This document shows, in pieces, positions 2,428 to 26,935 of a DNA stretch of 30,659 bases. Source of the stretch: a virus; the IMG/VR virus record IMGVR_UViG_3300007540_000056, positions 1 through 30,659 of that record; one strand, given 5' to 3'. The notes beneath the pieces are model-generated. The model ran no database searches. It was not told where the DNA came from and was given only the letters and a program-made list of their open reading frames with translations. Position 1 is the first letter of the stretch. Each line of letters starts with the position of its first letter. The translations under genes were made by a program, and so were the position numbers.

Positions 2428-4413
2428 TCACAGCGCCTCCTGAGAGTGGTTCCAGGCCGGTATCTCGGCGCAGTAGGCGGCCCATGTGGCGTCCGGAATC
2501 CGGCCCTTGCCGATCACCGCACCGGCCTTGCGCACCGCCTTGGTGGCTGCCGTCAGGCTGAGGTCCTTGTCGATCTCGTGCTTGCGGAGGGCGTCAAGGA
2601 CGCGCTCGTGGCGGTCGCTGGCGGGGTTGCCGACGACCTCGTGGCGCAGGCCGGACCCGTCCTCGACGCGCCGCAGGGTCAGGTCGGTCTCGGAGATCGG
2701 GAACCGCTGGGCCTCGCACTGCAGTCGGAAGGTGTCCTCACCGTCCCTGCTCAACCGCCAGACGGCATCCACGTCGCCGGACTTCGCGGACCCGCCTCGC
2801 TGGCCCTTGGACTCGTCCTTGCCTGCGTGGTCCAGCCGGATGAGGGCGACGCCTTCCTGCTTGAGCTTCAGCCCGGTGTGCTTGTAGAACTTCAGCCAGG
2901 TGTCGTTCTCGTTCTCCTCCCCGCCGATGGCCCTGCTCACGGTGTCCACCACGACGATCTCGCAGCCGTAGTACCGGATGGCGGCGAGCAGTTCCCGTGA
3001 CCCTGCCTCGGTGTCGAGGTAGTTCATGGTGGGGAACGACAGCAGGACGAGGTTGTCGAGGTCGTCGGGGCCGTAGCCCATGGATTCCAGCCGCTCGCGG
3101 ACGTCGGCTCGGGGGTCGTTCTCAAAGTCCACATAGAGGGTGCGGTAGGCGCGGCTGGGGGCGTGGTAGCCGAGCATCGCCTTGCCGTTGGCAACCGCCG
3201 CAGCAATCTCCAGCATGAGCAGCGACTTGCCGACCTTGGGGGCTGAGTAGAGGGCGACGAGCCTGCGGGCGGCGAGCAGCGGCTCAACTATCCATTCTTC
3301 CTTCTGCTCCTGCTGCCATAGGTCATGCCAGTCCACGCGGGGCAGGTTTTCGGCTACCCACGACGACTCGGCCTCGGCGGGCGACATATCGGTGCCGATA
3401 TCCACCTCCCATGCCGGCAGTGGGGGCAGGGCGAGGCGATCACCGAATCCTTGGTCGCTCAGCGCCCGTGATGCCGCGCTCATGTCCCCGCCGTGGTGGT
3501 AGTGCGCGTAGACCTGGCCCTTGCTCATCCCCACATCGGTGGGCAGACCGGCGTTGGTGGAGAAGCACACCATCGGCGCGTCCTCGATGGTGGAGGCAGA
3601 GATCCCGTCGGCGGCGCTTTTGCCGGGTCGCACCCAGTAGTTGCGGGTGTCGTCGCGGTGATCCCATGTCCAGCCCAAGGGCTGCAAGATCGCCGCCCAT
3701 GAGGTGGCGCGGAAGGCGTCAAGGCTGGAGGTGCCAGTGAAGGGCTCCATCACCCGTGGGGTTACGGCAGGGGCCACGGCAGGCGACTCGTCAAGCGCGA
3801 TACGGAACAGCTCGTGCAACTGGTCACGCTCGGCGGCGGTGACCAGCGCCGTGGCGGCGGGGTTGCTGGGTCCGATGAAGGCGTAGACCTTGCCCTCGGC
3901 GTGACCCTTGCGCCCGGGTGTCGGGGCGACGATGACGAAGCCACCCTCCCCCCTCGTTTCGGCGACCACCTCGCCAGCCGCGCTCATCGCCAGCTTGGTG
4001 TTGGCCTTCGCGGTGCCGTCGGTGATGCGAATGAACAGGTGCAGCCCGTCCCCGGCTGAGCGGATCATGCAGCCGCGGAAGATCCGATCCAGCAGGTCGG
4101 TGCAGTCGTGGTTCACGGCGGCTACCCGCAACTTCTCCAGCGCCGCCATCGCCAGGTCGGCTGGTCCCTCGATCTCGATCAGCTCGGTGTTGTCCGATGC
4201 CTTGCCCATGATCGCCCCGATGCCGGTGTGCCTGTCGGTCAGCAGGAGGGTCTGCAGGTCATCCCAGATCATGCGCTCGGACTGGTAGGACTTCCACCTG
4301 CCGAAGGGCCGCTTGGTGCCGTCCTCGTGGCTGGGCACGACCGCGTAGCCAGCGTCATACCAGTCACGCGCGGCGGCGATGAGGGGGTGGTCGGTGGTTG
4401 CGGGCATGGTCAC
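2428..4413 (-). CDS. Primase-polymerase / RepA-like helicase fusion
   Basis: The product has 661 residues. Residues 1-200 resemble the bifunctional primase/polymerase domain: the acidic ELIEIEG strand (77-83) stands where the family usually has DxD, followed by an SAGDGLH motif (119-125) and a VAPTPGRKG loop. Residues 370-560 form a RecA-fold hexameric ATPase of the RepA/AAA_25 type, with Walker A SAPKVGKS (390-397), Walker B IVVVDT (486-491) and RLDHAGKD (526-533). It would prime and unwind phage DNA for a host polymerase. The GTG start at 4413 overlaps the upstream TGA; ATG 4407 is an alternative. The repeat array lies directly downstream. Glu for Asp in the prim-pol strand is notable. Confidence 0.9.
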   Translation of the reverse strand: MTMPATTDHPLIAAARDWYDAGYAVVPSHEDGTKRPFGRWKSYQSERMIWDDLQTLLLTDRHTGIGAIMGKASDNTELIEIEGPADLAMAALEKLRVAAVNHDCTDLLDRIFRGCMIRSAGDGLHLFIRITDGTAKANTKLAMSAAGEVVAETRGEGGFVIVAPTPGRKGHAEGKVYAFIGPSNPAATALVTAAERDQLHELFRIALDESPAVAPAVTPRVMEPFTGTSSLDAFRATSWAAILQPLGWTWDHRDDTRNYWVRPGKSAADGISASTIEDAPMVCFSTNAGLPTDVGMSKGQVYAHYHHGGDMSAASRALSDQGFGDRLALPPLPAWEVDIGTDMSPAEAESSWVAENLPRVDWHDLWQQEQKEEWIVEPLLAARRLVALYSAPKVGKSLLMLEIAAAVANGKAMLGYHAPSRAYRTLYVDFENDPRADVRERLESMGYGPDDLDNLVLLSFPTMNYLDTEAGSRELLAAIRYYGCEIVVVDTVSRAIGGEENENDTWLKFYKHTGLKLKQEGVALIRLDHAGKDESKGQRGGSAKSGDVDAVWRLSRDGEDTFRLQCEAQRFPISETDLTLRRVEDGSGLRHEVVGNPASDRHERVLDALRKHEIDKDLSLTAATKAVRKAGAVIGKGRIPDATWAAYCAEIPAWNHSQEAL

Positions 4414-5635: not shown

Positions 5636-6439
5636 TTAGGGCAGGTAAGTCGTGATCGGCTTGGACTTGTAGACCTCGCGGACAGCCACCGCCGTCTGTG
5701 CGAGCTGCCAGCCGACGTTCAGGTCCAGCAGGTACAGTTCGCAGGTGCCCTTGCCAGCGGGCAGGTGGATCAGCAGTCCCACATCGGTGGAGACCCCGAG
5801 GTCTGGCAGGTACGCTGTGCGGGTGCTCTCCGCGATGTTGTAGAGGTGGCTGCGGGCGTAGATCGCGATCTGCGTCGTGACCCCGTGGGGATAGGTGGGT
5901 TCCGTCTGGCCTGTCTTCAGGTCAGCGATGACCACTCGCCCATCGGGGAGTTGGACGAGGCGGTCGAACGTCCCAGCGGCCTGCACGGCGTCGTTGACGA
6001 CGAACAACTCGGCGGCCTTCATCTCCAAGCCCTTGGTGGCCTTCTCGTAGGCGTCAAGGTCGCGGTAGTGATGCTCGGGGATGGACTCCAGCGTGCCCCG
6101 GTCCAACTGCTCGGTCAGGGAGTGCAGGGTGGTGCCCACGTTGGCGGCCTTGTCGCTCTCGGCGGCGGCCATGGCGGCGTCCACCAGTTCCTTCATCTTG
6201 CGCTTGTCGCTGGGGTCGGTGACGGCAGCGAGTTGGGCAAGGTCTGGGCGCTTGCCGATGCCCAGGGCCACCATGCGCTGCTTCCAGCTCATGAGCCCTT
6301 CCTTGGAGTCCAGCGCCTTGGCGAGCGTGCTGATGCGGGTGTAGGGGATGGGCTTGCCCCCGCCCTCGGGGACGATGAGTGGACGCCCCCAGCGGTCCCG
6401 GGCGATGCCCTCGCCCAGTTGGTTGAACGTGATGGTCAT
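5636..6439 (-). CDS. Cas4/RecB-like PD-(D/E)XK exonuclease
   Basis: The product has 267 residues. The nuclease motifs are visible in order: GTTLHSLTE (102-110, the family's GxxxH), GTFDR (156-160), IADLKTG (171-177, giving the DxK pair D173/K175) and QIAIYA (190-195, the QxxxY motif). Such proteins are annotated as Cas4-family or RecB-like exonucleases and process DNA ends for recombination. ATG 6439 is chosen because it follows a strong GAAGGAAGAAG site and begins the conserved sequence; the open frame continues 60 codons upstream but overlaps the PP-loop gene. The next gene downstream is a putative ssDNA-binding protein. Confidence 0.85.
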   Translation of the reverse strand: MTITFNQLGEGIARDRWGRPLIVPEGGGKPIPYTRISTLAKALDSKEGLMSWKQRMVALGIGKRPDLAQLAAVTDPSDKRKMKELVDAAMAAAESDKAANVGTTLHSLTEQLDRGTLESIPEHHYRDLDAYEKATKGLEMKAAELFVVNDAVQAAGTFDRLVQLPDGRVVIADLKTGQTEPTYPHGVTTQIAIYARSHLYNIAESTRTAYLPDLGVSTDVGLLIHLPAGKGTCELYLLDLNVGWQLAQTAVAVREVYKSKPITTYLP

Positions 6440-6471
6440 ACTTCTTCCTTCATTCGCAGGTGGTTGGTCAT
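6436..6471 (-). pseudogene. 11-codon ORF, duplicated tail of the 40-aa gene
   Basis: ATG 6471 overlaps the PP-loop stop (ATGA), and its TGA overlaps the exonuclease start (ATGA). It encodes MTNHLRMKEEV. Its NHLRMK matches the end of the 40-residue protein encoded at 7283-7405 (YNHLRMKDTTCH) and comes from the same 21-bp repeat. It is best read as the leftover 3' end of that gene after the PP-loop gene was inserted, perhaps kept as a coupling peptide that carries the exonuclease ribosome binding site. Confidence 0.55.
6446..6466 (-). repeat. 21-bp direct repeat, copy 1 (downstream of PP-loop gene)
   Basis: It is identical to 7299-7319. On the minus strand it contains CACCTGCGAATGAAGG. It spans the gap between the PP-loop stop and the exonuclease ribosome binding site. 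Confidence 0.9.
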
Positions 6472-7292
6472 GTCCAGCAATAGCCCGAGTCGCAGCCCTC
6501 GCCGCCTGGCATCTCAAAGCCGGGCAGCATGTCTTGAGCCTCGGGGATTGCCTCGGCCAGTGGCTTGGCAAAGCGAGTGAGGTACAGGGGGCGAACGCCG
6601 GTGCGCTCACGGCGCTCATTCATGGTCGCCTCAAGCTCGGCAGCCGACCAGAACAGGTCTGGCTGATCCCTGCGCATCTCTGCCCATTGGCTAGGGCGAG
6701 TGAACGGGCAGAAATAGCAGGCCGACTTTGGTGGGACTAGAAGCCCGGCATCTGAGATGACGCCAATGCAGTCCATTCGGCTCATGCCCAGCTCAATCAA
6801 GGGATACACAGGCACTTCGTAGTTGCCTTGCCGCTTGTTGGACACACGGGTGATCTCGTCGGTGCTGATGCCTATGCAGACGGTGGCAGGGCTGTTCTTG
6901 CTGGCGCCGTTAGCCTTGAGCCATCGCGCAACCACCATCACCTTGTAGTCGCGTGTGCAGCCGCGAGACATTGGCGCACCAGATTCACCGCGCAGCGGGA
7001 TGATGTCTGACTGCTTGCCAGCGGCGGTGCCAGCAATGAGGTGCTCGTAGAGATCGCGGACTTGGCCATCTTTGGTGGTGCGCTTGATCTCATGCACGGT
7101 GATGCCGCGCTCGGCAGCCCATGGGGTTGCGATATCGCGGATGTATTCCAAGGTTGCCGGGTGCTCTGCCTTCTCGCCCACGTTGGCGAACAGGGCCGCG
7201 TCTATGTCGTACCCCAGTCGCCCTTGTGCAGCGAGTACGAGCATCGCGGTGGACTGCACGCCGCCGCCGTAGCTGATCGTCGTTAGTGGCAT
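6468..7292 (-). CDS. PP-loop ATPase, PAPS-reductase-like
   Basis: The product has 274 residues. The N-terminal SYGGGVQST (7-15) is the PP-loop that binds ATP in adenine-nucleotide alpha-hydrolases (PAPS reductase, DndC and tRNA thiolation enzymes). A GCTRDYK motif (111-117) and CYFC (192-195) are also present; the latter could bind zinc or an Fe-S cluster. The substrate is unknown: sulfonucleotide reduction, DNA phosphorothioation or RNA thiolation are family options, and no DndA/D/E partner is present here. It is flanked by an exact 21-bp direct repeat and looks like an inserted cassette. ATG 7292 overlaps the small upstream gene. The C-terminus is Gly/Cys-rich (GGEGCDSGYCW). Confidence 0.85.
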   Translation of the reverse strand: MPLTTISYGGGVQSTAMLVLAAQGRLGYDIDAALFANVGEKAEHPATLEYIRDIATPWAAERGITVHEIKRTTKDGQVRDLYEHLIAGTAAGKQSDIIPLRGESGAPMSRGCTRDYKVMVVARWLKANGASKNSPATVCIGISTDEITRVSNKRQGNYEVPVYPLIELGMSRMDCIGVISDAGLLVPPKSACYFCPFTRPSQWAEMRRDQPDLFWSAAELEATMNERRERTGVRPLYLTRFAKPLAEAIPEAQDMLPGFEMPGGEGCDSGYCWT

Positions 7293-10503: not shown

Positions 10504-11466
10504 ATGTCCGGTCAGCTAATGCTGTATTCGCAAAATAAAGCTTCGGGCGTGTCGGGCCATGTCTACGACATACCCCCTGCCAATTATTCGCCAGTAGTTC
10601 AGGATTGCTTCAATGTAACGAGAGGGAGCAATGACCAGCAGAAGCCCACAGCACGGGTGAGCAGACGACGCAAGGCACCAGCACCAGCAACACCGTGGGA
10701 GGGGGAATACCTGTCGTGGATGGCAGCCGAGGGCATCGCCGTCGAGACCATGCGCCAGCGGATCTACCTGCTGCGCGGACTCGGCAAGCATCCCGAGGAC
10801 GTGAGGGTGAGCGACATCGTGGAGGTACTCAACTCCCGCAACTTGTCGCAGCACTCCAAGGCGGCCTACATCACGGTCTACAAGACGGTGTTCGCGGATC
10901 TGCTGCGCATGGGGATGGTGCAGGCCGACCCGACCGCGATGCTGCGCACGCCAAAGACACCACGGCGCTCACCTAGGCCGCTGTCGTCCGAGCAGTTGGC
11001 GCGGCTAGAGACACTCTCCATTCACCGACCGGAACACGCCTGGACGATCCTTGGGGCCTACGCAGGGCTGCGCGTCGGGGAGGTCTGCTCCATCACCGGG
11101 CGGGCTCTCCAGTACCGCAGCAGCGGGGCCGTCCTGTGCATCACCGGCAAGGGAGGGCTGACCGCCGACATCCCCGCGCACCCCAAGGTGCTGGAGGTGA
11201 TGAAGCCCCACGAGGGGAACCCCGAGGCGATCTGGCCGATGTGGCCGCAGAGCATGAACCGCGCTTGGCAGAAGGCCGCGAAGTGGGTGGGGGTAGAGGA
11301 TGTCGTCTTCCACCAGCTCCGGCACTCGTTCGCCACGCGGTTGACGCGAGCGGGCGTGGACCTGCTGGTCATCGCGGACCTTTGCCGGCACTCGTCGGTG
11401 GCGACCACGCAGCGCTACGCCAAGGTGGCCGACGATGCGCCCTTTGAGGCGGTCGTCGGGCTCTAG
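10504..11466 (+). CDS. int: Tyrosine integrase
   Basis: The product has 320 residues. The catalytic set is complete: R190 (YAGLRVGEV), K216 (ITGKGGL), H270-x2-R273 (HQLRHSFAT), H296 (CRHSS) and Y305 (TTQRYAKV). Residues 63-145 form the SAM-like core-binding domain; the first 60 residues are basic and probably contact arm sites. ATG 10504 has GGAG upstream and follows the tRNA-like attP closely. The gene ends at 11466, where TAG overlaps the TAG of the converging minus-strand gene in a shared CTAG. It shows the phage is temperate. Confidence 0.95.
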   Translation: MSGQLMLYSQNKASGVSGHVYDIPPANYSPVVQDCFNVTRGSNDQQKPTARVSRRRKAPAPATPWEGEYLSWMAAEGIAVETMRQRIYLLRGLGKHPEDVRVSDIVEVLNSRNLSQHSKAAYITVYKTVFADLLRMGMVQADPTAMLRTPKTPRRSPRPLSSEQLARLETLSIHRPEHAWTILGAYAGLRVGEVCSITGRALQYRSSGAVLCITGKGGLTADIPAHPKVLEVMKPHEGNPEAIWPMWPQSMNRAWQKAAKWVGVEDVVFHQLRHSFATRLTRAGVDLLVIADLCRHSSVATTQRYAKVADDAPFEAVVGL

Positions 11467-19980: not shown

Positions 19981-20400
19981 CTAGGCTCCGGTGCCGCGAG
20001 CAACCGCACCCGAAATCGGGAACGAGTAGGACGCGGTGGCCAGATCGCCGACCGCACCGTCCACGGGGGTGTAGGACGTGATCGCGCAGGTGAAGGCGAA
20101 CGAGGGATTCGTCGCCGAGACTGCAGCGGTGCCACCGGGGATGACCGTCACTGCGGCCGTACCAGTGCTGAAGGCGTCGTACACCAGCGAGTCAATGCCC
20201 GAAGCGCCGAAGTCCTGGTGGATCTCCATGTCAAACGTGCCGGAGCGCAGCCCGGTTACCCGAGACCTCCAGCCTGACCCCCCGAAAGCGGTGGTCTCCA
20301 CGTCGTCAGCTTCCAGCGAGATGGTCACGGACGCCACGGAGGTGGTCACCGTGCTACCGGCGAACACAACCACCGGCTCTGTCAATACGAACTTAGCCAT
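19981..20400 (-). CDS. Major tail protein
   Basis: The product has 139 residues and is rich in Thr, Ser, Gly and Val with alternating β-strands, and contains TAFGGSGWRSRVTGLRSG (about 37-54), a motif commonly seen in tail-tube proteins of actinophages. It lies directly upstream of the chaperone genes, as expected. ATG 20400 has AAGGAG. It would form the repeating tube ring. It is short compared with many major tail proteins but within the known range. Confidence 0.85.
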   Translation of the reverse strand: MAKFVLTEPVVVFAGSTVTTSVASVTISLEADDVETTAFGGSGWRSRVTGLRSGTFDMEIHQDFGASGIDSLVYDAFSTGTAAVTVIPGGTAAVSATNPSFAFTCAITSYTPVDGAVGDLATASYSFPISGAVARGTGA

Positions 20401-20413
20401 GATTGGCCTCTCC

Positions 20414-20818
20414 TTATGCGTAGACCGTGACCACGAATTCCGCGGTCAGGTAGGTGTTTTCGGCAATGGACATCGGACCCACGTTCCGCATGTCCGTAAC
20501 TCGGCAGGTCTGTGCAGCCCCGCCGAGGGATCGGTCGGCCTCGATGGCCGTCTTGATGCTGCCCGCGCCCGTGGGGTTGGCGTAGGCGTCCAGCGATGCC
20601 TGAGCGGTGCGCTCGGACAGTCGCCCCACCATCACGAGGATGGAGACTTCGTAGGTGTCTAGGCCGCGACCCATCGAGGTGTCGTAGCTGACACTCGGCG
20701 GCATCACAATCGCCACCGGGGGGTTGGGGTCGTCGGGCACGGTCGCTGACGTGCGCAGGCCGGAGATCGTCCCCAGCCTCGTCGCCAGCCCGCTGCGAAT
20801 CCCCGAGATCGTTGTCAC
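20414..20818 (-). CDS. Tail terminator protein
   Basis: The product has 134 residues: a helical start MTTISGIRSGLATRLGTISG, then strands (PPVAIVMPP, TYEVSILVMVG) and AQASLDAYANPTG with SIKTAIEAD. This fits the gpU/tail terminator fold that caps the tail tube and joins it to the head. GTG 20818 overlaps the connector stop (GTGA). Placement between connector and major tail protein supports the call. Confidence 0.75.
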   Translation of the reverse strand: MTTISGIRSGLATRLGTISGLRTSATVPDDPNPPVAIVMPPSVSYDTSMGRGLDTYEVSILVMVGRLSERTAQASLDAYANPTGAGSIKTAIEADRSLGGAAQTCRVTDMRNVGPMSIAENTYLTAEFVVTVYA

Positions 20819-21420
20819 GCGACGCCCACCACGGTGCGGCGGTAGGGACGCAGTAGCGCGTCAATGTCGGGGTCAACGCGGCCCACTCGAATCGCGCCCA
20901 TATCACCGAACCCGGCAACACCCAGCGCGGAGTCGTACCGCTTGAACTGGCGCAGCGCCATGATCAGGCAAGCCTGCTTCACGGCGGTTGGGACGGCGGT
21001 GCCGAACCCGAACACACCAGTGACCTTGACGCCGAACTCCGCGCCGATGGGGAACAGGTTGTCCCCGACGGCACGCAGCCGAGTCACCGGCCAGTCCAGC
21101 CCCGAGGCTCGGGAGTTGCCCGGCTCCAACTGGTAGTCGGTCGTCAGCCAGGTCTCGTCGTAGATGCCGTCAAGGTCGCTGGAGGTCTCCAGCGTGATCG
21201 CCGTGCCGGCAAGGTCGTCCACGTCCACCCAGTAGTGATGGCTCGCGGAGTAGTAACGGATCTCGGTGCCGCCGGTGTAGAAGCGGCGCTCGGTGTAGCC
21301 GTCAATCAGTCGGGAGGACGCCTCGATGCTGGTCTCCAGCAGGGCGTCGTCCACGCTGTCGGTGATGCGGGCTGCGGCCTTGACTTCGGCAAGCGTGACG
21401 TAGCCGTTAGAAATGGCCAT
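20815..21420 (-). CDS. Head-tail connector (adaptor, gp6-like)
   Basis: The product has 201 residues. The helical start (MAISNGYVTLAEVKAAARI, DDALLETSIEASSRLIDGY) and later PTAVKQACLIMALRQFKRYD are typical of HK97 gp6 / SPP1 gp15-type adaptors that bind the portal. It ends in a basic stretch RPYRRTVVGVA. ATG 21420 has GGGGAG and overlaps the methyltransferase stop by 14 bases. Normally this gene would follow the capsid gene directly; here three modification genes come between. Confidence 0.8.
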   Translation of the reverse strand: MAISNGYVTLAEVKAAARITDSVDDALLETSIEASSRLIDGYTERRFYTGGTEIRYYSASHHYWVDVDDLAGTAITLETSSDLDGIYDETWLTTDYQLEPGNSRASGLDWPVTRLRAVGDNLFPIGAEFGVKVTGVFGFGTAVPTAVKQACLIMALRQFKRYDSALGVAGFGDMGAIRVGRVDPDIDALLRPYRRTVVGVA

Positions 21421-21940
21421 GCGTTACTCCCCAGAAGTAGAGGTCATGTGAACGGTCGTTGGTGGTAAAGGCGTACTCGGCGAACATTGAGCCAAGGTCA
21501 ACGGCCAAGCGGAAGTCGTCGGCCGTGAGGTTTCGGTAGTAGTCCCACTGCAGCGTCAGCGGTGATGAACCGGGGTCACTGCGGGTCGTGCCGTGCTCGG
21601 CGCGGCCAGTGGTCGCGCACGTCATCACGACTAGGCCGTCGGCCATGCGGTGCATATTGACAAACGTGGCCACCCACTCGGGGTTGTGCTCCATGCACTC
21701 GGCGCTGACCACGGTGTCAAAACTTCGGTCGGGGTAGTCCACGTCCTGCCCCAGTGCGACCACATCGACGCCAGGACCTGACGCGACATCCACTCCGGTG
21801 TAGTCGCAGCCGGTGAAGAAGTCGCGCACCGTGCCATTGATGTTGAGACTGCCCACCTCCAGCACCCGACAGTCAGTGAAGGAGTGGGGGAAGCGGGCAA
21901 CCATCTGCGCAAAGAACTCGCGCTGCTCGGGGTGCGCCAT
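21407..21940 (-). CDS. SAM-dependent methyltransferase
   Basis: The product has 177 residues with a class I methyltransferase fold: motif I VLEVGSLNING (26-36), acidic residue D51 after strand 2 (YTGVDVASGPGVD), and FDTVVSAECMEH (74-85) for motif IV. It lacks DNA methyltransferase catalytic motifs such as DPPY, so a small molecule, sugar or protein substrate is more likely. ATG 21940 overlaps the GT2 stop (TGATG). It is the last of a three-gene set with two glycosyltransferases, so methylation of an attached glycan is an attractive but unproven idea. Confidence 0.8.
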   Translation of the reverse strand: MAHPEQREFFAQMVARFPHSFTDCRVLEVGSLNINGTVRDFFTGCDYTGVDVASGPGVDVVALGQDVDYPDRSFDTVVSAECMEHNPEWVATFVNMHRMADGLVVMTCATTGRAEHGTTRSDPGSSPLTLQWDYYRNLTADDFRLAVDLGSMFAEYAFTTNDRSHDLYFWGVTHGHF

Positions 21941-22587
21941 CAGTCCCACGCCTGATCTCGTCGGCGCTTCAGGCTCCACCGTCCCTCGCTCAGGTCACCG
22001 CGGAACTGCTTGGCGGCGTGGTACTGGGCATTGACCTTGAAGGTGCGGTCATTGGCGGCTCTGTAACCGCCGTCAAGCGTCGATGAGTTGCGGTGGTCCA
22101 CGCCTATGCCGGACTGCACGACAGGCACTCCAGCGGCGTGACAGCGCCGCTCGTAGTCGTTGTCCTCAAAGTAGGCAGGGTGCAGGTACTCATCGAACAG
22201 GCCGACCTGTCGCACCACGTCCTCGCCGACGCTGAACGCGCACCACGGCGGGGAGGCGTGCGCGAGGCGCAGCACCTGCGGGGCGTCGTCGGTGTCGAAC
22301 TGCTTCAACGATCCTGCAGGCCAGGTGACATCGAAGTTGGCGACCAGCCACCACGGTGCGAACGGCGTGGCCTTGATGCCGAGATTCCAGCTCGTCGCCA
22401 CGCCGAGGTTGCTCGGCATACGCAGGACGTAGGCGTTCTCGGCCCAGTCGCGGTGCGGGAAGTCACCGGGCAGGGTGTGCCCGTTGTCAATGATGACTAG
22501 CGTGCCGACGTGGTAGTCCACGCTGTCGAGCATCCGGTCGAGAAGTTCAGGCCGCGTCAGGATCGGCACGACCATCACGGGGATCAT
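21940..22587 (-). CDS. Family 2-like glycosyltransferase
   Basis: The product has 215 residues with a GT-A-like layout: MIPVMVVPILTRPELLDRML start, LVIIDNG (30-36), NLGVATSWNLGI (60-71), ANFDV (83-87, the place of the metal-binding DxD) and a later YFEDNDYERRC. It would transfer a sugar from a nucleotide donor. ATG 22587 is chosen because ATGA overlaps the previous stop; a longer frame has no conserved sequence. The target is unknown; the position after the major capsid gene points to virion proteins. Confidence 0.8.
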   Translation of the reverse strand: MIPVMVVPILTRPELLDRMLDSVDYHVGTLVIIDNGHTLPGDFPHRDWAENAYVLRMPSNLGVATSWNLGIKATPFAPWWLVANFDVTWPAGSLKQFDTDDAPQVLRLAHASPPWCAFSVGEDVVRQVGLFDEYLHPAYFEDNDYERRCHAAGVPVVQSGIGVDHRNSSTLDGGYRAANDRTFKVNAQYHAAKQFRGDLSEGRWSLKRRRDQAWD

Positions 22588-23783
22588 CGGGACTCCCAGA
22601 ACTGCCGCCAGTCCTCGCGGTAAAGGGTGTCTGCGTCGTAGTTCTCCACAATGTGATCGCGGGACGCCGGGGAGCGGTCGCCTGCCCCAAGGGCGTAGGA
22701 CTCGACCAGCGCGTGGACGATCTCCTCCACGTTCGGGGTGGAGAACCACGCCGACTGCGCCGGGTCCCACAAGGGCTGGCCGCTGACCTTCCAGCCGTCC
22801 GTGACCAGCTCGGGCTGGGCGGTGAAGTTCTGGACGATGCTGCGGGTCTCGCAGGCGGCAGCCTCGGCGACCGTCAGGCCGAAGCCCTCACCGAGGGTGG
22901 GGGCGAGCAGCACATCGGTGCCGGTGTAGATCGCGGCCATGGCGTCGTCGGGGATGCCGAGGCGGTGCTGGTACTGGTTCACCGTCGCCACGCGGTCCAT
23001 CGGTGCGCCGACCGCCTCCAGCAGCGGGGCGAACGGTATGCCACCCATGCCGCCGCCGGTCTCGGTGTGCAGGTACAGCCAGGCGTCGTCACGCTCACGG
23101 GCGAAGATGGACCATGCGAGCAACTGCTCGGCGAAGGCCTTGCGAACCGGGGCGGTGCCCTTGTTAGCGTTGACGATGCTCGTGACGTGAACGTCGGTCG
23201 GAACCTTCATCAACTGCCGCCCAGTGACGTACTTACCGCCACCGTCCTTGACAGCCTCGGTCGGCTTGTAGAGGTCGGTGTCAATGCCGTGTGGAATCAC
23301 ATGGTTGGCGATACCGGCGTTGTTGAGCATCTGCCCACCGAAGTGGGACATCGCCACTGGGGTGACGTTCGGCCTATCGCACCAGCCCCGCACCTTCGGT
23401 GGTGCGGGGGTGTGGTCAATCGGCACCCACGACACCACGGGGATGTCAAGCTTGTCCCACGCGGGATGCTGGGCGAACACCCAGACGTCGTACAGCGTGA
23501 ACACCACCGGCTGCAGGTCAGGATTCTGACGCGCCCAGTCCTTGGCATAGGCGGCCACGATGTCGTTGGAGTAGCCGTCGTAGCCCTTGGGCAGGACGGG
23601 GATGCCCTCCCACTCGGTCTGTGTGGCCTCCAGCCCATAGTTGGCGGCGATGGCGACCTTGTGGCCGTCGCGCTGCATCCGGCTGGCGAGTTGCTTGGTC
23701 TGTGTGCCGTATCCGGTCGGAGCCCAAGGGGCGTTGGAGACCATCAGGACGGCGAGAGGCTTGGGGGTCTTGTATCGGGACAT
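22584..23783 (-). CDS. GT4/GT1-like glycosyltransferase (GT-B fold)
   Basis: The product has 399 residues. Residues 11-26 (VLMVSNAPWAPTGYGT) resemble the N-terminal Gly loop, HVIPHGID (161-168) is the linker motif, and GEGFGLTVAEAAACE (298-312) is the EX7E sugar-nucleotide site (E299, E307). These define a retaining GT-B enzyme. ATG 23783 is chosen at the conserved start; only a weak ribosome binding site is seen. It follows the major capsid gene and a strong hairpin, and overlaps the GT2 gene. Confidence 0.88.
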   Translation of the reverse strand: MSRYKTPKPLAVLMVSNAPWAPTGYGTQTKQLASRMQRDGHKVAIAANYGLEATQTEWEGIPVLPKGYDGYSNDIVAAYAKDWARQNPDLQPVVFTLYDVWVFAQHPAWDKLDIPVVSWVPIDHTPAPPKVRGWCDRPNVTPVAMSHFGGQMLNNAGIANHVIPHGIDTDLYKPTEAVKDGGGKYVTGRQLMKVPTDVHVTSIVNANKGTAPVRKAFAEQLLAWSIFARERDDAWLYLHTETGGGMGGIPFAPLLEAVGAPMDRVATVNQYQHRLGIPDDAMAAIYTGTDVLLAPTLGEGFGLTVAEAAACETRSIVQNFTAQPELVTDGWKVSGQPLWDPAQSAWFSTPNVEEIVHALVESYALGAGDRSPASRDHIVENYDADTLYREDWRQFWESR

Positions 23784-23797
23784 GGCAGGGTCGTCCG

Positions 23798-23827
23798 TTC
23801 GCAGGTGGTGCGCAGGATTCGCAGGTG
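23798..23827 (-). repeat. Two copies of TTCGCAGGTG before the glycosyltransferase
   Basis: TTCGCAGGTG occurs at 23798-23807 and 23818-23827, 20 bases apart. The same 10-mer occurs at 6453-6462 and 7306-7315 inside the 21-bp repeats. All four lie just upstream of minus-strand start codons. Confidence 0.7.
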
Positions 23828-23831
23828 AGGT

Positions 23832-23870
23832 GTCCCGGGGGCGCTGTCCTGCGCCCAACACCCCCGGGAC
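23832..23870. repeat. G/C-rich inverted repeat after the capsid gene
   Basis: GTCCCGGGGG (23832-23841) pairs perfectly with CCCCCGGGAC (23861-23870). The T run (GTTTTG) lies on the plus strand, so it would act as a terminator for plus-strand RNA. On the minus strand it has no U tail and may instead stabilise the 3' end of the abundant capsid message. Confidence 0.65.
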
Positions 23871-23888
23871 GTTTTGCTCACTGACGGA

Positions 23889-25076
23889 CTAGGAAGCCCC
23901 GCCGGTGAAGCGCTTGATCGCGGCCGACTGGCCGATGTCGCCCCAGATGCGCAGAGTTGCGCGCACACCGATCTCGTCGGACGCGAAGTAGGCGTCCTCG
24001 GAGCGGGCAATCTCCAGTCCACCGGCGATGCGCACCATGTAGTTGCGCAGGCCACCGAACAGGACCGACTTGGCCGAGGTCGCCACGTCGGCAACGTCGG
24101 GGTTGTCGTAGATCGGAGCGCCGAGCAGGATGTCGGGAGCGCCGACCGTGGCGGCAGGCTCAAACAGGTAGCGGCCGGAGCCGTCCTTGAGCTTGCGTAC
24201 CGCGCCGATGGTGGAGCGGTTCATCATCCAGCCAGCACCGTTGCGGACGTAAGCGCCGTCAACGGAGTGGGCGAGGTCGATGAGGTTGTCAGCGGTGAAC
24301 GACCCCGCGACGCCCGTACTGCCCGCGATGCCCGCAGAGGCAGCAACGGAAATTCCGTTCGGGATGACAGTGCCCGTGCCGAGAGTGAGGAGGTTGTTCG
24401 CCTTCACGCCCAGCGCGATGCCCAGATCCTCTGCGAGGAACTGCTCGATGTTGACACCCTCGTCGGCGAGCAGCTCGCGGCTGACCTTCGTCAGGACCGC
24501 AACCTTCTGCGCCTTCATGGTGACCGTGGAGAACGTCGGGTCAAGCGCCGAAATCTCGGTGGCCTCCGCGATGGCGGTGGCTGCCGGGCGGGTCGCCTGA
24601 ACCGGCACCTGCAGGTCGTTGCCGCCCGCAGTGTTGATGACGCGAACCACGCCACCGTCGGTCATCGGGCCGACCGTGGTCATGATCTTCTGGACCTCGG
24701 CGAGGAAGTCCGTGGGGACCAGCGAGGAATCGTCGCTGGTGTTCAGGGCGCGGCGCTCAAAGTTGATCGAGCGAACCTCGCCGTTCAGGAGGGCGCGGAT
24801 GTCGGAGGCGGCCTTCTCGGGCTTGACCTCGCGCACAGCGCGGACCTCGGGTGCCTCGGCGACCGCAGCCTCAATCTCGGCGCTGCGGGCCTCGGCGACC
24901 TGAAGATCCTTGATTTTCTGGCCACGCTCGTCAATGTCGGCCATCATTCGGCCGTAGGACTGCTCCTCCTCGGAGGTGAGGTCGCGCGATTCGGCGGCCG
25001 CACCATCGAGCAGAGCCTTGGCAGCGTGCCACGCCTGCTGGCGGGCCTCGATCTGCCGGTTCAGGTACTCACTCAT
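23889..25076 (-). CDS. Major capsid protein, HK97 fold
   Basis: The product has 395 residues. Residues 1-90 form a charged helical delta/scaffold domain (RQIEARQQAWHAAKAL, TSEEEQSYGRMMADIDER), which the prohead protease should remove. From about 110 the HK97 fold follows, with SSLVPTDFLAEVQKIM, LTKVSRELLAD and GWMMNRSTIGAVRKLKD. ATG 25076 has a TAGGAG site. It lies after protease and portal in the usual head order. A hairpin follows its stop. Confidence 0.95.
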   Translation of the reverse strand: MSEYLNRQIEARQQAWHAAKALLDGAAAESRDLTSEEEQSYGRMMADIDERGQKIKDLQVAEARSAEIEAAVAEAPEVRAVREVKPEKAASDIRALLNGEVRSINFERRALNTSDDSSLVPTDFLAEVQKIMTTVGPMTDGGVVRVINTAGGNDLQVPVQATRPAATAIAEATEISALDPTFSTVTMKAQKVAVLTKVSRELLADEGVNIEQFLAEDLGIALGVKANNLLTLGTGTVIPNGISVAASAGIAGSTGVAGSFTADNLIDLAHSVDGAYVRNGAGWMMNRSTIGAVRKLKDGSGRYLFEPAATVGAPDILLGAPIYDNPDVADVATSAKSVLFGGLRNYMVRIAGGLEIARSEDAYFASDEIGVRATLRIWGDIGQSAAIKRFTGGAS

Positions 25077-25138
25077 GGTTATGTCTCCTAAGACATGGAA
25101 GGGATGTAATGCGCAGGGGGAGAGGTCGGCGGCTCCGC

Positions 25139-25171
25139 CGATAAACCCCAGCGCGGCTCCGCTGTCTGGGG
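25139..25171 (-). terminator. Terminator-like hairpin between protease and capsid genes
   Basis: On the minus strand CCCCAG and CTGGGG pair, with an inner GCGG/CCGC stem, followed by TTTATC. A second short inverted repeat (CGGCGG/CCGCCG) follows. It lies in the 109-bp gap between the protease stop and the capsid start, and may reduce or process the upstream message. Confidence 0.55.
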
Positions 25172-25185
25172 AAAGATGAGAGGGG

Positions 25186-25893
25186 CTACAGGTCCTTGCC
25201 CCACAGGTCGATCTGCTTCTGCAGGATGCTCAAAGGCACCGTCGGGTCGGCAGCCTTGTCTGGCCGCGAGCGGTCCACGACCTCCTGCAGCACGCTCGCC
25301 TGGTCATCGGTGAGCGCGTCGCCGGACTCCAGCGCGCTGATCGCGTCGGCGAGGGCGTCCACGTCGGTGTTGGTGCGCTTGGCGAGCAGGCGCAGGTTGC
25401 GCACGCTGGCGCTCGTCGCGGGGTAGGCGGCCACGCCGGTGACAACCGACACCTCGTGCAGACGCACCTCCTGCAAGGTGCGCTCGTTGCCGTCAGGGCT
25501 CCAGTTGTCCTTGACGGTGGAGAAGCCGAAGCTCATGGTGCGCACGTCGCCGCGCTCGATCAGGGAGCGCAGGTCGTGCGCGTAGGACGTATCGGGCAGG
25601 TCAGCCTCGGCCCACAGACCCTCGGCGCGATCCTCCAGCCGCAGCGTCTTGGCGCGGGTCGAGGCAAGCACCATGCGGTCGTCGTGATTGACGTACATGC
25701 GCACGTCGTTGCGGGACTTCAACGTCCGCGAGAACGCTCCCGGCGCGATGCGCTCGGTAAACGGCAGCGGCAGGCTGGGGGAGTTGTAACGGGCGGCAAA
25801 ACCCGAGAAGGTGCCCACCTTGCCCTCGGACGGGTCCGCAGCGCGGAACTCCAGCTCCTCGGTGTCCAGCGACCTGATCTCAACGTCGGTCAT
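25186..25893 (-). CDS. Prohead protease (HK97 family, S78)
   Basis: The product has 235 residues. RMYVNHDDR carries the likely catalytic H70, and RTMSFGFS carries S121, as in the HK97 gp4 family; LHEVSVV follows as the conserved strand. It would remove the capsid delta domain and then itself. The C-terminal 80 residues are charged and flexible, probably the targeting tail. ATG 25893 has AAAGGAC. Confidence 0.92.
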   Translation of the reverse strand: MTDVEIRSLDTEELEFRAADPSEGKVGTFSGFAARYNSPSLPLPFTERIAPGAFSRTLKSRNDVRMYVNHDDRMVLASTRAKTLRLEDRAEGLWAEADLPDTSYAHDLRSLIERGDVRTMSFGFSTVKDNWSPDGNERTLQEVRLHEVSVVTGVAAYPATSASVRNLRLLAKRTNTDVDALADAISALESGDALTDDQASVLQEVVDRSRPDKAADPTVPLSILQKQIDLWGKDL

Positions 25894-25911
25894 GTGGTTG
25901 TCCTTTCGGGG

Positions 25912-26577
25912 TTACAGCAAGTCCAGAGCCAGTAGGTCGGCTTCCATCGCCTGCCTGCGCCAGGTGCGCAGCAGGTCATCGGTCGGCCAGCGATCACCGC
26001 TGGCGTGCCCTCGGGTCCTCGTGGTGCCTTGGGCGTTGCCGCCGTATCCGCAGCGGCCCGTCGTGCTGGCCGTGGCGGTGACCCGTCCGCGAGCGCTGCC
26101 GGAATGGTGAGTCGGTTGCGGTGCAGGCCGTGACTGAGGTCGGCGCTGCGGCAGGTAGCCACCACCGCCGACGGCAGCAGAAGGCTCCGGTGCTGGCGGT
26201 ACAGGGGTCGGAGCGGTGCCCGTCACCGAGCCCGTAGACGCGACAGAACCTGTCGCGCCTCCGGTGAGTTCAGGGCTGCCAGATGCAGCGCCTACGGCCG
26301 CGACAGCGCCAGTAACGGTGCCGTCAGTGGCCTTGGCTCCGGTCGCCGAGCCCGTCGCGGTGGACGAGCCGGTGATGGTGCCGGTGTTGCCCTCGGTGCC
26401 CGTTGCCGAGCCCGAGGAAGTCGTGGTGCCGGTAGCCGAGCCGGTGGCACCGAAGGTCCCAGTCGCGCTGCCCGTCGTGGTGCTGGTGGCCTCTACGAAG
26501 CCGGTGCCAGGTCCTCCGAGGACGTTGGACCCGATGACACCGAGGACTGCATCACCGAGCGTGAACAGCCCGGCCAC
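25912..26577 (-). CDS. Thr/Ser/Gly decapeptide-repeat head-region protein
   Basis: The product has 221 residues. After a hydrophobic start (MAGLFTLGDAVLGVIG), residues 36-125 consist of nine decapeptides of the form G-S/T-x-T-G-x5 (GSATGTFGAT, GSATGTTTSS, GSATGTEGNT and so on). Then come a Pro-rich linker (PTPVPPAPEPS), a Gln/Arg/Pro-rich segment and an acidic helical end. No family is recognised. The regular Thr/Ser density would suit O-glycosylation, and two glycosyltransferase genes lie in the same operon. GTG 26577 follows the previous stop by one base. A capsid fibre is one possible role. Confidence 0.7.
   Translation of the reverse strand: MAGLFTLGDAVLGVIGSNVLGGPGTGFVEATSTTTGSATGTFGATGSATGTTTSSGSATGTEGNTGTITGSSTATGSATGAKATDGTVTGAVAAVGAASGSPELTGGATGSVASTGSVTGTAPTPVPPAPEPSAAVGGGGYLPQRRPQSRPAPQPTHHSGSARGRVTATASTTGRCGYGGNAQGTTRTRGHASGDRWPTDDLLRTWRRQAMEADLLALDLL
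26203..26472 (-). repeat. 30-bp tandem repeat coding for decapeptides
   Basis: Nine imperfect 30-bp units cover the region encoding residues 36-125 of the repeat protein. Each begins with a GGC/GGT-Ser/Thr codon pair and has a Gly at position 5. DNA copies have diverged while the peptide pattern is kept. Confidence 0.8.
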
Positions 26578-26578
26578 G

Positions 26579-26935
26579 TCAGCTCACAGACTCCGACAGG
26601 TTGCCGATGGCGATGGTGTACGTCCCGGCCGTGGCGTAGGTCTGCGAGGTGTCCAGCGCACGGGAGCCGTAGAACGTCCCCGAGGTGGACGCGGACCAGT
26701 AGCCCAAGTGCGTGATCGTCGTGCCCGAGGGGACGTCGAAGACGATGGCGGTGTCGTTCGTGACCGTGCCATCGGCAGGCGATCCCCACGCGGACAACTC
26801 ACGGGTATAGGAGCCGCCGGTGACCTCGCTGGTGCCACCCGTGGACGGGTCGGCAGTGTGCAGCGAAACATAGGTCGCTGAGCCGGTAAAGCCGGTCAGC
26901 ATCAGGTTCAGCCCTGCGGCTACCAGTCCGGCCAT
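26579..26935 (-). CDS. Head-region structural protein (118 aa)
   Basis: The product starts MAGLVAAGLNLMLTG and contains THVSLHT-like ATYVSLHTADPST (20-32), EVTGGSYTRELSAW and PSGTTITHLGYW. This β-rich pattern is seen in many phages as a small virion or fibre-like protein near head or tail genes. It shares the opening MAGL with the repeat protein downstream. It overlaps the portal stop by one base (TAATG). The exact role is unknown. Confidence 0.7.
   Translation of the reverse strand: MAGLVAAGLNLMLTGFTGSATYVSLHTADPSTGGTSEVTGGSYTRELSAWGSPADGTVTNDTAIVFDVPSGTTITHLGYWSASTSGTFYGSRALDTSQTYATAGTYTIAIGNLSESVS

Follow-up and report, generated by a model that had tools for sequence, protein, structure and literature searches.

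A three-gene cassette in the head operon of an uncultured phage probably glycosylates a virion protein. It was studied in the virus record IMGVR_UViG_3300007540_000056, taken as a single window of 30,659 bases, and encodes a GT-B glycosyltransferase, a GT-A glycosyltransferase and an S-adenosylmethionine (SAM)-dependent methyltransferase between the major capsid gene and the head-tail connector gene. Virion glycosylation had been put forward in an earlier note on this DNA and stays the leading idea, on account of the tie between the GT-B and capsid genes, the place in the head operon and the comparable sets of glycosyltransferases plus methyltransferase in phages with proven virion glycosylation. 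The features that carry the argument are the following.

22584..23783, minus strand: GT4-like glycosyltransferase of GT-B type, the cassette's constant enzyme (Pfam Glyco_trans_1_4; PHROG 2170; invariant E299).
21940..22587, minus strand: GT2-like glycosyltransferase of GT-A fold (PHROG 29879; predicted fold; invariant acidic residues).
21407..21940, minus strand: SAM-dependent methyltransferase, a possible glycan cap (PHROG 32762; Methyltransf_11).
23889..25076, minus strand: HK97-fold major capsid protein, first candidate acceptor (Phage_capsid, E 8e-57; linkage to GT-B).

The cassette encodes two glycosyltransferases and a methyltransferase

The three genes lie on the minus strand at the positions first given for them, and the families they had been assigned to were borne out by profile, fold and motif evidence. 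The GT-B protein scored 32.6 bits against Pfam Glyco_trans_1_4 (cut-off 27) and matched PHROG 2170 (E 2e-34); it contains the conserved acidic motif GEGFG-x4-E, with E299 invariant in 37 relatives and the second Glu present in the majority. The GT2-like protein matched PHROG 29879 (E 3e-42) and, weakly, Pfam (14.6 bits, under the cut-off of 23.3), and 22 of the 31 members of its family matched PF00535 at E 0.01. Its AlphaFold model, with a predicted local distance difference test score (pLDDT) of 95.4, matched GT-A enzymes of the PDB from E 4e-8, and D86, E141 and D142 are invariant in 31 relatives, NxD and ED motifs being present. On this predicted fold the product was confirmed as a GT-A/GT2 glycosyltransferase. 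The methyltransferase gave Rossmann-type methyltransferase profile matches, to PHROG 32762 (E 6e-76) and Methyltransf_11 (22.2 bits, cut-off 21.2), and is 57-60% identical to the methyltransferases of phages phiPsal1 and S-CBS4, both of which have a GT-B gene nearby. A membrane-spanning stretch was found in none of these enzymes (Kyte-Doolittle mean at most 1.18), and all three look soluble.

Among close relatives, the ratio of non-synonymous to synonymous substitution rates was 0.01-0.10 for GT-B, similar to that of the capsid gene, and 0.11-0.19 for GT2; it reached 0.24-0.28 when the GT-B gene of the window was compared with that of locus L006 or L010. The GT-B gene is under purifying selection.

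The GT-B gene is tied to the capsid gene

A profile made from five GT-B proteins found matches in at least 577 viral contigs. Gene order was checked for the best 80 of them, and in nearly all of the best loci whose head genes were compared, the capsid gene was followed in turn by GT-B, a variable interval and the connector. This order was seen in more than 100 distinct contigs, which excludes chance. To avoid selecting on GT-B, a search with a capsid profile was also used as the starting point: GT-B stood directly downstream of the capsid gene in 68 of the 77 decidable viral contigs chosen in this way, the nine others having none. On the capsid tree, the cassette-less phages occupy at least two positions, which means that the presence of GT-B has changed at least twice.

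The 84,980 species genomes searched held only nine relatives of GT-B, seven of them adjoining phage capsid genes. These seven are in metagenome-assembled genomes (MAGs) labelled actinobacterium, Microbacteriaceae, Chloroflexi, Steroidobacteraceae and uncultured bacterium, labels that may mislead for phage contigs. In L175 and L177 (MAGs labelled Chloroflexi) and in L173 (Steroidobacteraceae), the GT-B gene directly follows a divergent capsid gene. GT-B genes are also found near head genes with other capsids, behind the capsid gene in the Microcystis phage Mae-JY09 and beside the portal gene in S-CBS4, and the capsid-GT-B tie holds across divergent phages.

A virion protein as the favoured target

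Soluble enzymes, a late head operon and linkage to the capsid gene together favour a virion protein as the target, as do the proven mycobacteriophage sets, in which glycosyltransferases come with a methyltransferase, when taken with the capsid linkage. The predominance of sugar and methyl enzymes among the genes behind GT-B and the low substitution ratios count in favour of this reading as well. We infer the acceptor, the donor sugars, the order of action and the benefit along the following lines. The cassette would be built into the late head operon, its enzymes being made alongside the head proteins. The constant GT-B would act in the cytoplasm on a virion protein, with the major capsid protein as first candidate and the tail tube protein as second. 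Extension of the glycan would fall to the GT-A enzyme, and capping to the methyltransferase. The benefit would probably lie in altered particle features that are recognised by host, predator or competitor. The nearest named relatives point to free-living water bacteria as hosts; should that hold, antibody evasion, one of the benefits first suggested, is unlikely to be the driver.

Several points weigh against a virion target. Profile comparisons of the window enzymes with proteins of mycobacteriophage Che8 and of Dylan, a Corndogvirus used as a stand-in for Corndog, gave no significant match. No Ser/Thr column of a capsid or tail protein follows the presence of the transferases, and a C-terminal Thr motif of the capsid and tail-tube proteins, considered as acceptor, also occurs in cassette-less phages. 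The capsid linkage can in part be explained by vertical descent of the head operon, an integrase encoded in the window makes effects on the surface of a lysogen conceivable, and the virion glycan is one that we infer from sequence.

Two other signals were rejected. Capsid residue T234 is Thr in 91% of carriers and 0% of cassette-less phages, but was ruled out by the transferase-bearing loci L131, L152 and L182, which also have Asp at this position. Capsid divergence in cassette-less phages was absent relative to the connector (-0.009) and small relative to the tail protein (-0.051).

The virion reading would have consequences beyond this record. With GT-B carried by hundreds of uncultured relatives, usually at this same position, phage particles coated with sugars may be common. 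A capsid-tied cassette of this spread, non-homologous to the known one, suggests a widespread trait kept for reasons other than antibody shielding, among them perhaps how hosts, predators or rival phages recognise the particle. Glycosylated virions could be predicted from metagenomes with the cassette as sequence marker.

Layout of the head operon

The head operon, on the minus strand, runs through the small and large terminase, portal, a Gp80-like protein, a repeat protein, an S78 protease and the HK97 capsid protein, then GT-B, GT-A/GT2 and methyltransferase, followed by connector, tail terminator and major tail protein. The genes around the cassette that enter the discussion are these.

20815..21420, minus strand: head-tail connector, the gene after the cassette (Phage_connect_1 over cut-off; PHROG 442).
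19981..20400, minus strand: major tail protein, the other candidate acceptor, ranked second on the mycobacteriophage analogy (PHROG 4574, E 2e-23).
26579..26935, minus strand: Gp80/phrog_240 head protein, constant partner of the repeat protein (Pfam Gp80, E 2e-20; PHROG 240).
25912..26577, minus strand: Gly/Thr/Ser decapeptide repeat protein, an associated head gene that the cassette does not require (family, repeat and distribution comparisons).

The earlier note had described an unbroken overlapping run after the capsid gene. The enzyme genes do overlap each other and the connector (4, 1 and 14 nt along the run, the last into the connector), but a 105-nt gap separates them from the capsid gene. 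That the connector normally follows the capsid gene directly was upheld by cassette-less relatives, where the capsid-connector gap is 83-89 bp. A consensus scan of 20300-26600 found no sigma-70-like promoter and no intrinsic terminator, and megablast against phage records returned no DNA-level relatives of the window. Elsewhere in the window are a tyrosine integrase (10504-11466, plus strand) and a phosphoadenosine phosphosulfate reductase-like protein (6468-7292, minus strand; PHROG 424).

A conserved hairpin precedes the GT-B gene

The gap between the capsid and GT-B genes is a candidate RNA control element.

23784..23888, minus strand: leader with a 15-bp stem-loop (loop GGGCGCAGGAC), then CCTGCG repeats and CCCTGCC before the ATG; possible loop-repeat pseudoknot.

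In these 105 nt, the 15-bp stem closes a loop containing GCGCAGGAC, and there are three copies of CCTGCG, with CCCTGCC immediately 5' of the ATG. The fold of the window leader is moderately better than that of shuffled sequences (z -2.15), so that the case for an RNA element rests on conservation. A stem of at least 10 pairs, no further than ~90 nt from the capsid stop, was present in 140 of 141 distinct loci, against 24 of 141 single-base shuffles. Departures from Watson-Crick pairing in the stem, read on the mRNA strand, were G.U in 107 cases and A.C in 3, which indicates that selection acts on the RNA. A comparison with Rfam gave no match to the window.

The loop also tends to match the sequence downstream. 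In GT-B carriers the mean match run between the loop and the following 75 nt was 5.52, versus 4.56 (sd 0.08) when loops were exchanged between loci and 3.59 in shuffled sequence, a contrast that is inflated by near relatives. Loop and repeat were exchanged as pairs in several loci (GGCAGGA/TCCTGCC in L030, GTGCA/TGCAC in L196, TCAC/GTGA in L039, ATCGCA/TGCGAT in L207). The six cassette-less loci kept the hairpin and not the repeats, with loop matches of only 4 nt. Among 134 carriers, 34 have CYTGC at most 3 nt from an ATG or GTG, and 29 lack any 5-nt loop match. The covariation of the loop with short repeats before the GT-B start suggests translational control, and a loop-repeat pseudoknot limiting GT-B translation is, from these sequence comparisons, a reasonable hypothesis that would not be universal. 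It is possible, if on balance doubtful, that in a large lineage of small-genome phages one constant transferase and fast-changing later enzymes build the virion glycan, and that the hairpin following the capsid gene acts as an RNA switch: by pairing through its loop with the repeats at the translation start of the constant transferase, the structure of the capsid mRNA would set the amount of that enzyme. A second CCTGC cluster (four copies within 80 nt, window ~5730-5810, minus strand) lies inside an exonuclease gene and may be due to chance.

Sugar and methyl enzymes vary behind GT-B

Depending on the phage, the interval between GT-B and connector contains nothing, a GT2, a GT2 and a methyltransferase (as in the window) or other genes. 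A scan of 92 other interval proteins recovered 17 MptE-like proteins (PF01973), the 'glycosyltransferase' phrog_9549 matching 14, together with eight GT2, five epimerases, GT11, GT17, sialyltransferase-like proteins, methyltransferases and homing endonucleases. PF01973 presumably also covers the flagellin glycosyltransferases (Maf). In the nearest relatives, L006 and L009, an MptE-like protein takes the place of the methyltransferase of the window. In these two loci, in L030, L033-L037 and in others, MptE-like proteins, sugar epimerases, GT11, GT17, sialyltransferase-like proteins and several methyltransferases stand in for each other between GT-B and connector, as in an island of glycan diversity. 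Homing endonuclease and endonuclease VII families recur in the interval of L015, L016, L020, L026 and others, and such endonucleases may be a means of exchanging sugar enzymes.

Alternative targets

The best of the alternatives, still an improbable one, is that the late-made transferases alter glycans of the host wall or membrane and so exclude other phages or keep progeny off debris. A host-surface role or DNA protection has been proposed for the glycosyltransferases of cultured freshwater actinophages, those of Planktophila (PMC10202952); an integrase is moreover found in the window, G020 and G022. Against this, 15 of the 18 examined records, which may be incomplete, gave no integrase match, the three enzymes have no membrane segment, no flippase was recognised among the scanned proteins, and the strict position behind the capsid gene would have no obvious reason. 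A seroconversion cassette of the gtr type is not apparent either, as no gene for a membrane flippase or membrane-bound transferase lies between capsid and connector.

Less probable still is glycosylation of a hypermodified base of the phage DNA, as protection against nucleases. Besides the proposal made for the actinophage enzymes (PMC10202952), it has in its favour that phage DNA glycosyltransferases likewise adopt a GT-B fold (PMC6024577). A thymidylate-synthase-family gene was found in none of the 18 records, in a search whose controls worked, and no Tet/JBP match was obtained in a search that had no working control. The cassette also stands in the head operon and not with replication genes, and several different sugar enzymes occur in the interval. 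Taken together, the integrase, thymidylate synthase and Tet/JBP searches count in part against host-surface and DNA targets.

Least likely of the three is a dedicated acceptor role for the Thr/Ser repeat protein, which the earlier note had named as a possible acceptor. At positions 2, 4 and 6 of the repeat, Ser/Thr make up 73%, 58% and 52% of the residues, in exchange with Ala and Val, and one transferase-less clade has a shortened repeat protein; the invariant repeat residues, on the other hand, are mostly Gly and not Ser or Thr. Counted by distinct capsids, 55 GT-B carriers lack a repeat protein in the stretch from portal to protease and 23 have a long version, while of five distinct cassette-less phages three have a short one and two none. 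L021 and L022 share the same three-gene cassette (capsid protein 99.5% identical; identities of 92-99.5% across capsid, GT-B and the other cassette genes), but in L022 a 234-aa protein without family match (3656-4360) replaces the gp80 and repeat genes of L021, and L152 pairs the transferase with a short repeat protein. With 55 distinct carriers devoid of it and a short form retained in some transferase-less phages, the repeat protein is rejected as a required substrate of the cassette. Repeat protein and transferases, whose joint presence or absence had been suggested as a check, do not always go together, many GT-B carriers lacking the repeat protein. Transferases without any repeat protein had been named, together with glycosylated host lipids, as speaking against the proposal, and the former half of this does occur.

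The repeat protein itself may be a strand-forming accessory virion protein, conceivably one that is glycosylated too. Its gene was said to lie upstream of the cassette in the same direction; it is on the minus strand, but the protease and capsid genes lie between. The nine decapeptides reported for it came to eight on recount, in register in a main array of 98 aa with 43% Ser+Thr. Its predicted structure (pLDDT 40) was unusable. The family occurs in 71 viral loci, a Gp80-like gene preceding it wherever the region is present. In L138, L146, L157, L163-L166 and L168, gp80 is accompanied by long decapeptide repeats and no related capsid gene was found nearby; the searched members of these long-repeat relatives of other lineages, whose records may be fragments, gave no GT4 or GT2 match.

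Comparison with known systems

Virion glycosylation is reported for mycobacteriophages Che8, Corndog and Myrna in two accounts (PMC12363180, PMC12619734), which describe Che8 gp110 and Corndog gp38 as essential to capsid glycosylation (PMC12363180) and place glycans at the C-termini of capsid and tail-tube proteins (PMC12619734). The measured effect is shielding from antibodies (PMC12363180). As in the window, Che8 and Corndog group phage-encoded glycosyltransferases with a methyltransferase, and Dylan has a methyltransferase and three glycosyltransferases inside the head operon, between portal and protease. The Che8 genes, in contrast, sit at the right end of the genome. Dylan gp35 and Che8 gp110 both belong to PHROG 854, and no homologue of this essential transferase family was found among the window enzymes (PHROGs 2170, 29879 and 32762). 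The Che8 set comprises a GT2-methyltransferase fusion and two further enzymes, one GT2-like and one GT25, in PHROGs other than those of the window, whereas the GT4-like GT-B enzyme of the window is absent from the Che8/Corndog set.

Closer in content is the Pontimonas phage phiPsal1 (MG835450), in which all three enzyme families recur between the capsid gene and the connector gene (GT-B ~41% and methyltransferase 60% identical to the window), a cassette described by annotation only (PMC6106888). Its methyltransferase gene is in the middle and on the opposite strand, gp80 and the repeat protein were not detected, and a hairpin followed by a T run stands behind the capsid gene. In Synechococcus phage S-CBS4, gp014-gp016 encode a GT-B, a GT2-like enzyme and a methyltransferase in one run among the head genes; unlike that of the window, it follows the portal gene, well ahead of the capsid gene. 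The nearest solved sequence to the GT-B profile is B736L (PDB 3OY2, E 1e-12) of chlorovirus NY-2A, a virus that encodes glycosyltransferases. The similarity is remote and serves as analogy only; DNA glycosyltransferases match B736L too (PMC6024577), and it does not discriminate in favour of a capsid target (PMC6024577, PMC9614988). As the window enzymes are not homologous to the mycobacteriophage set, the cassette is probably a counterpart to mycobacteriophage virion glycosylation that works in a similar way but stands outside that system.

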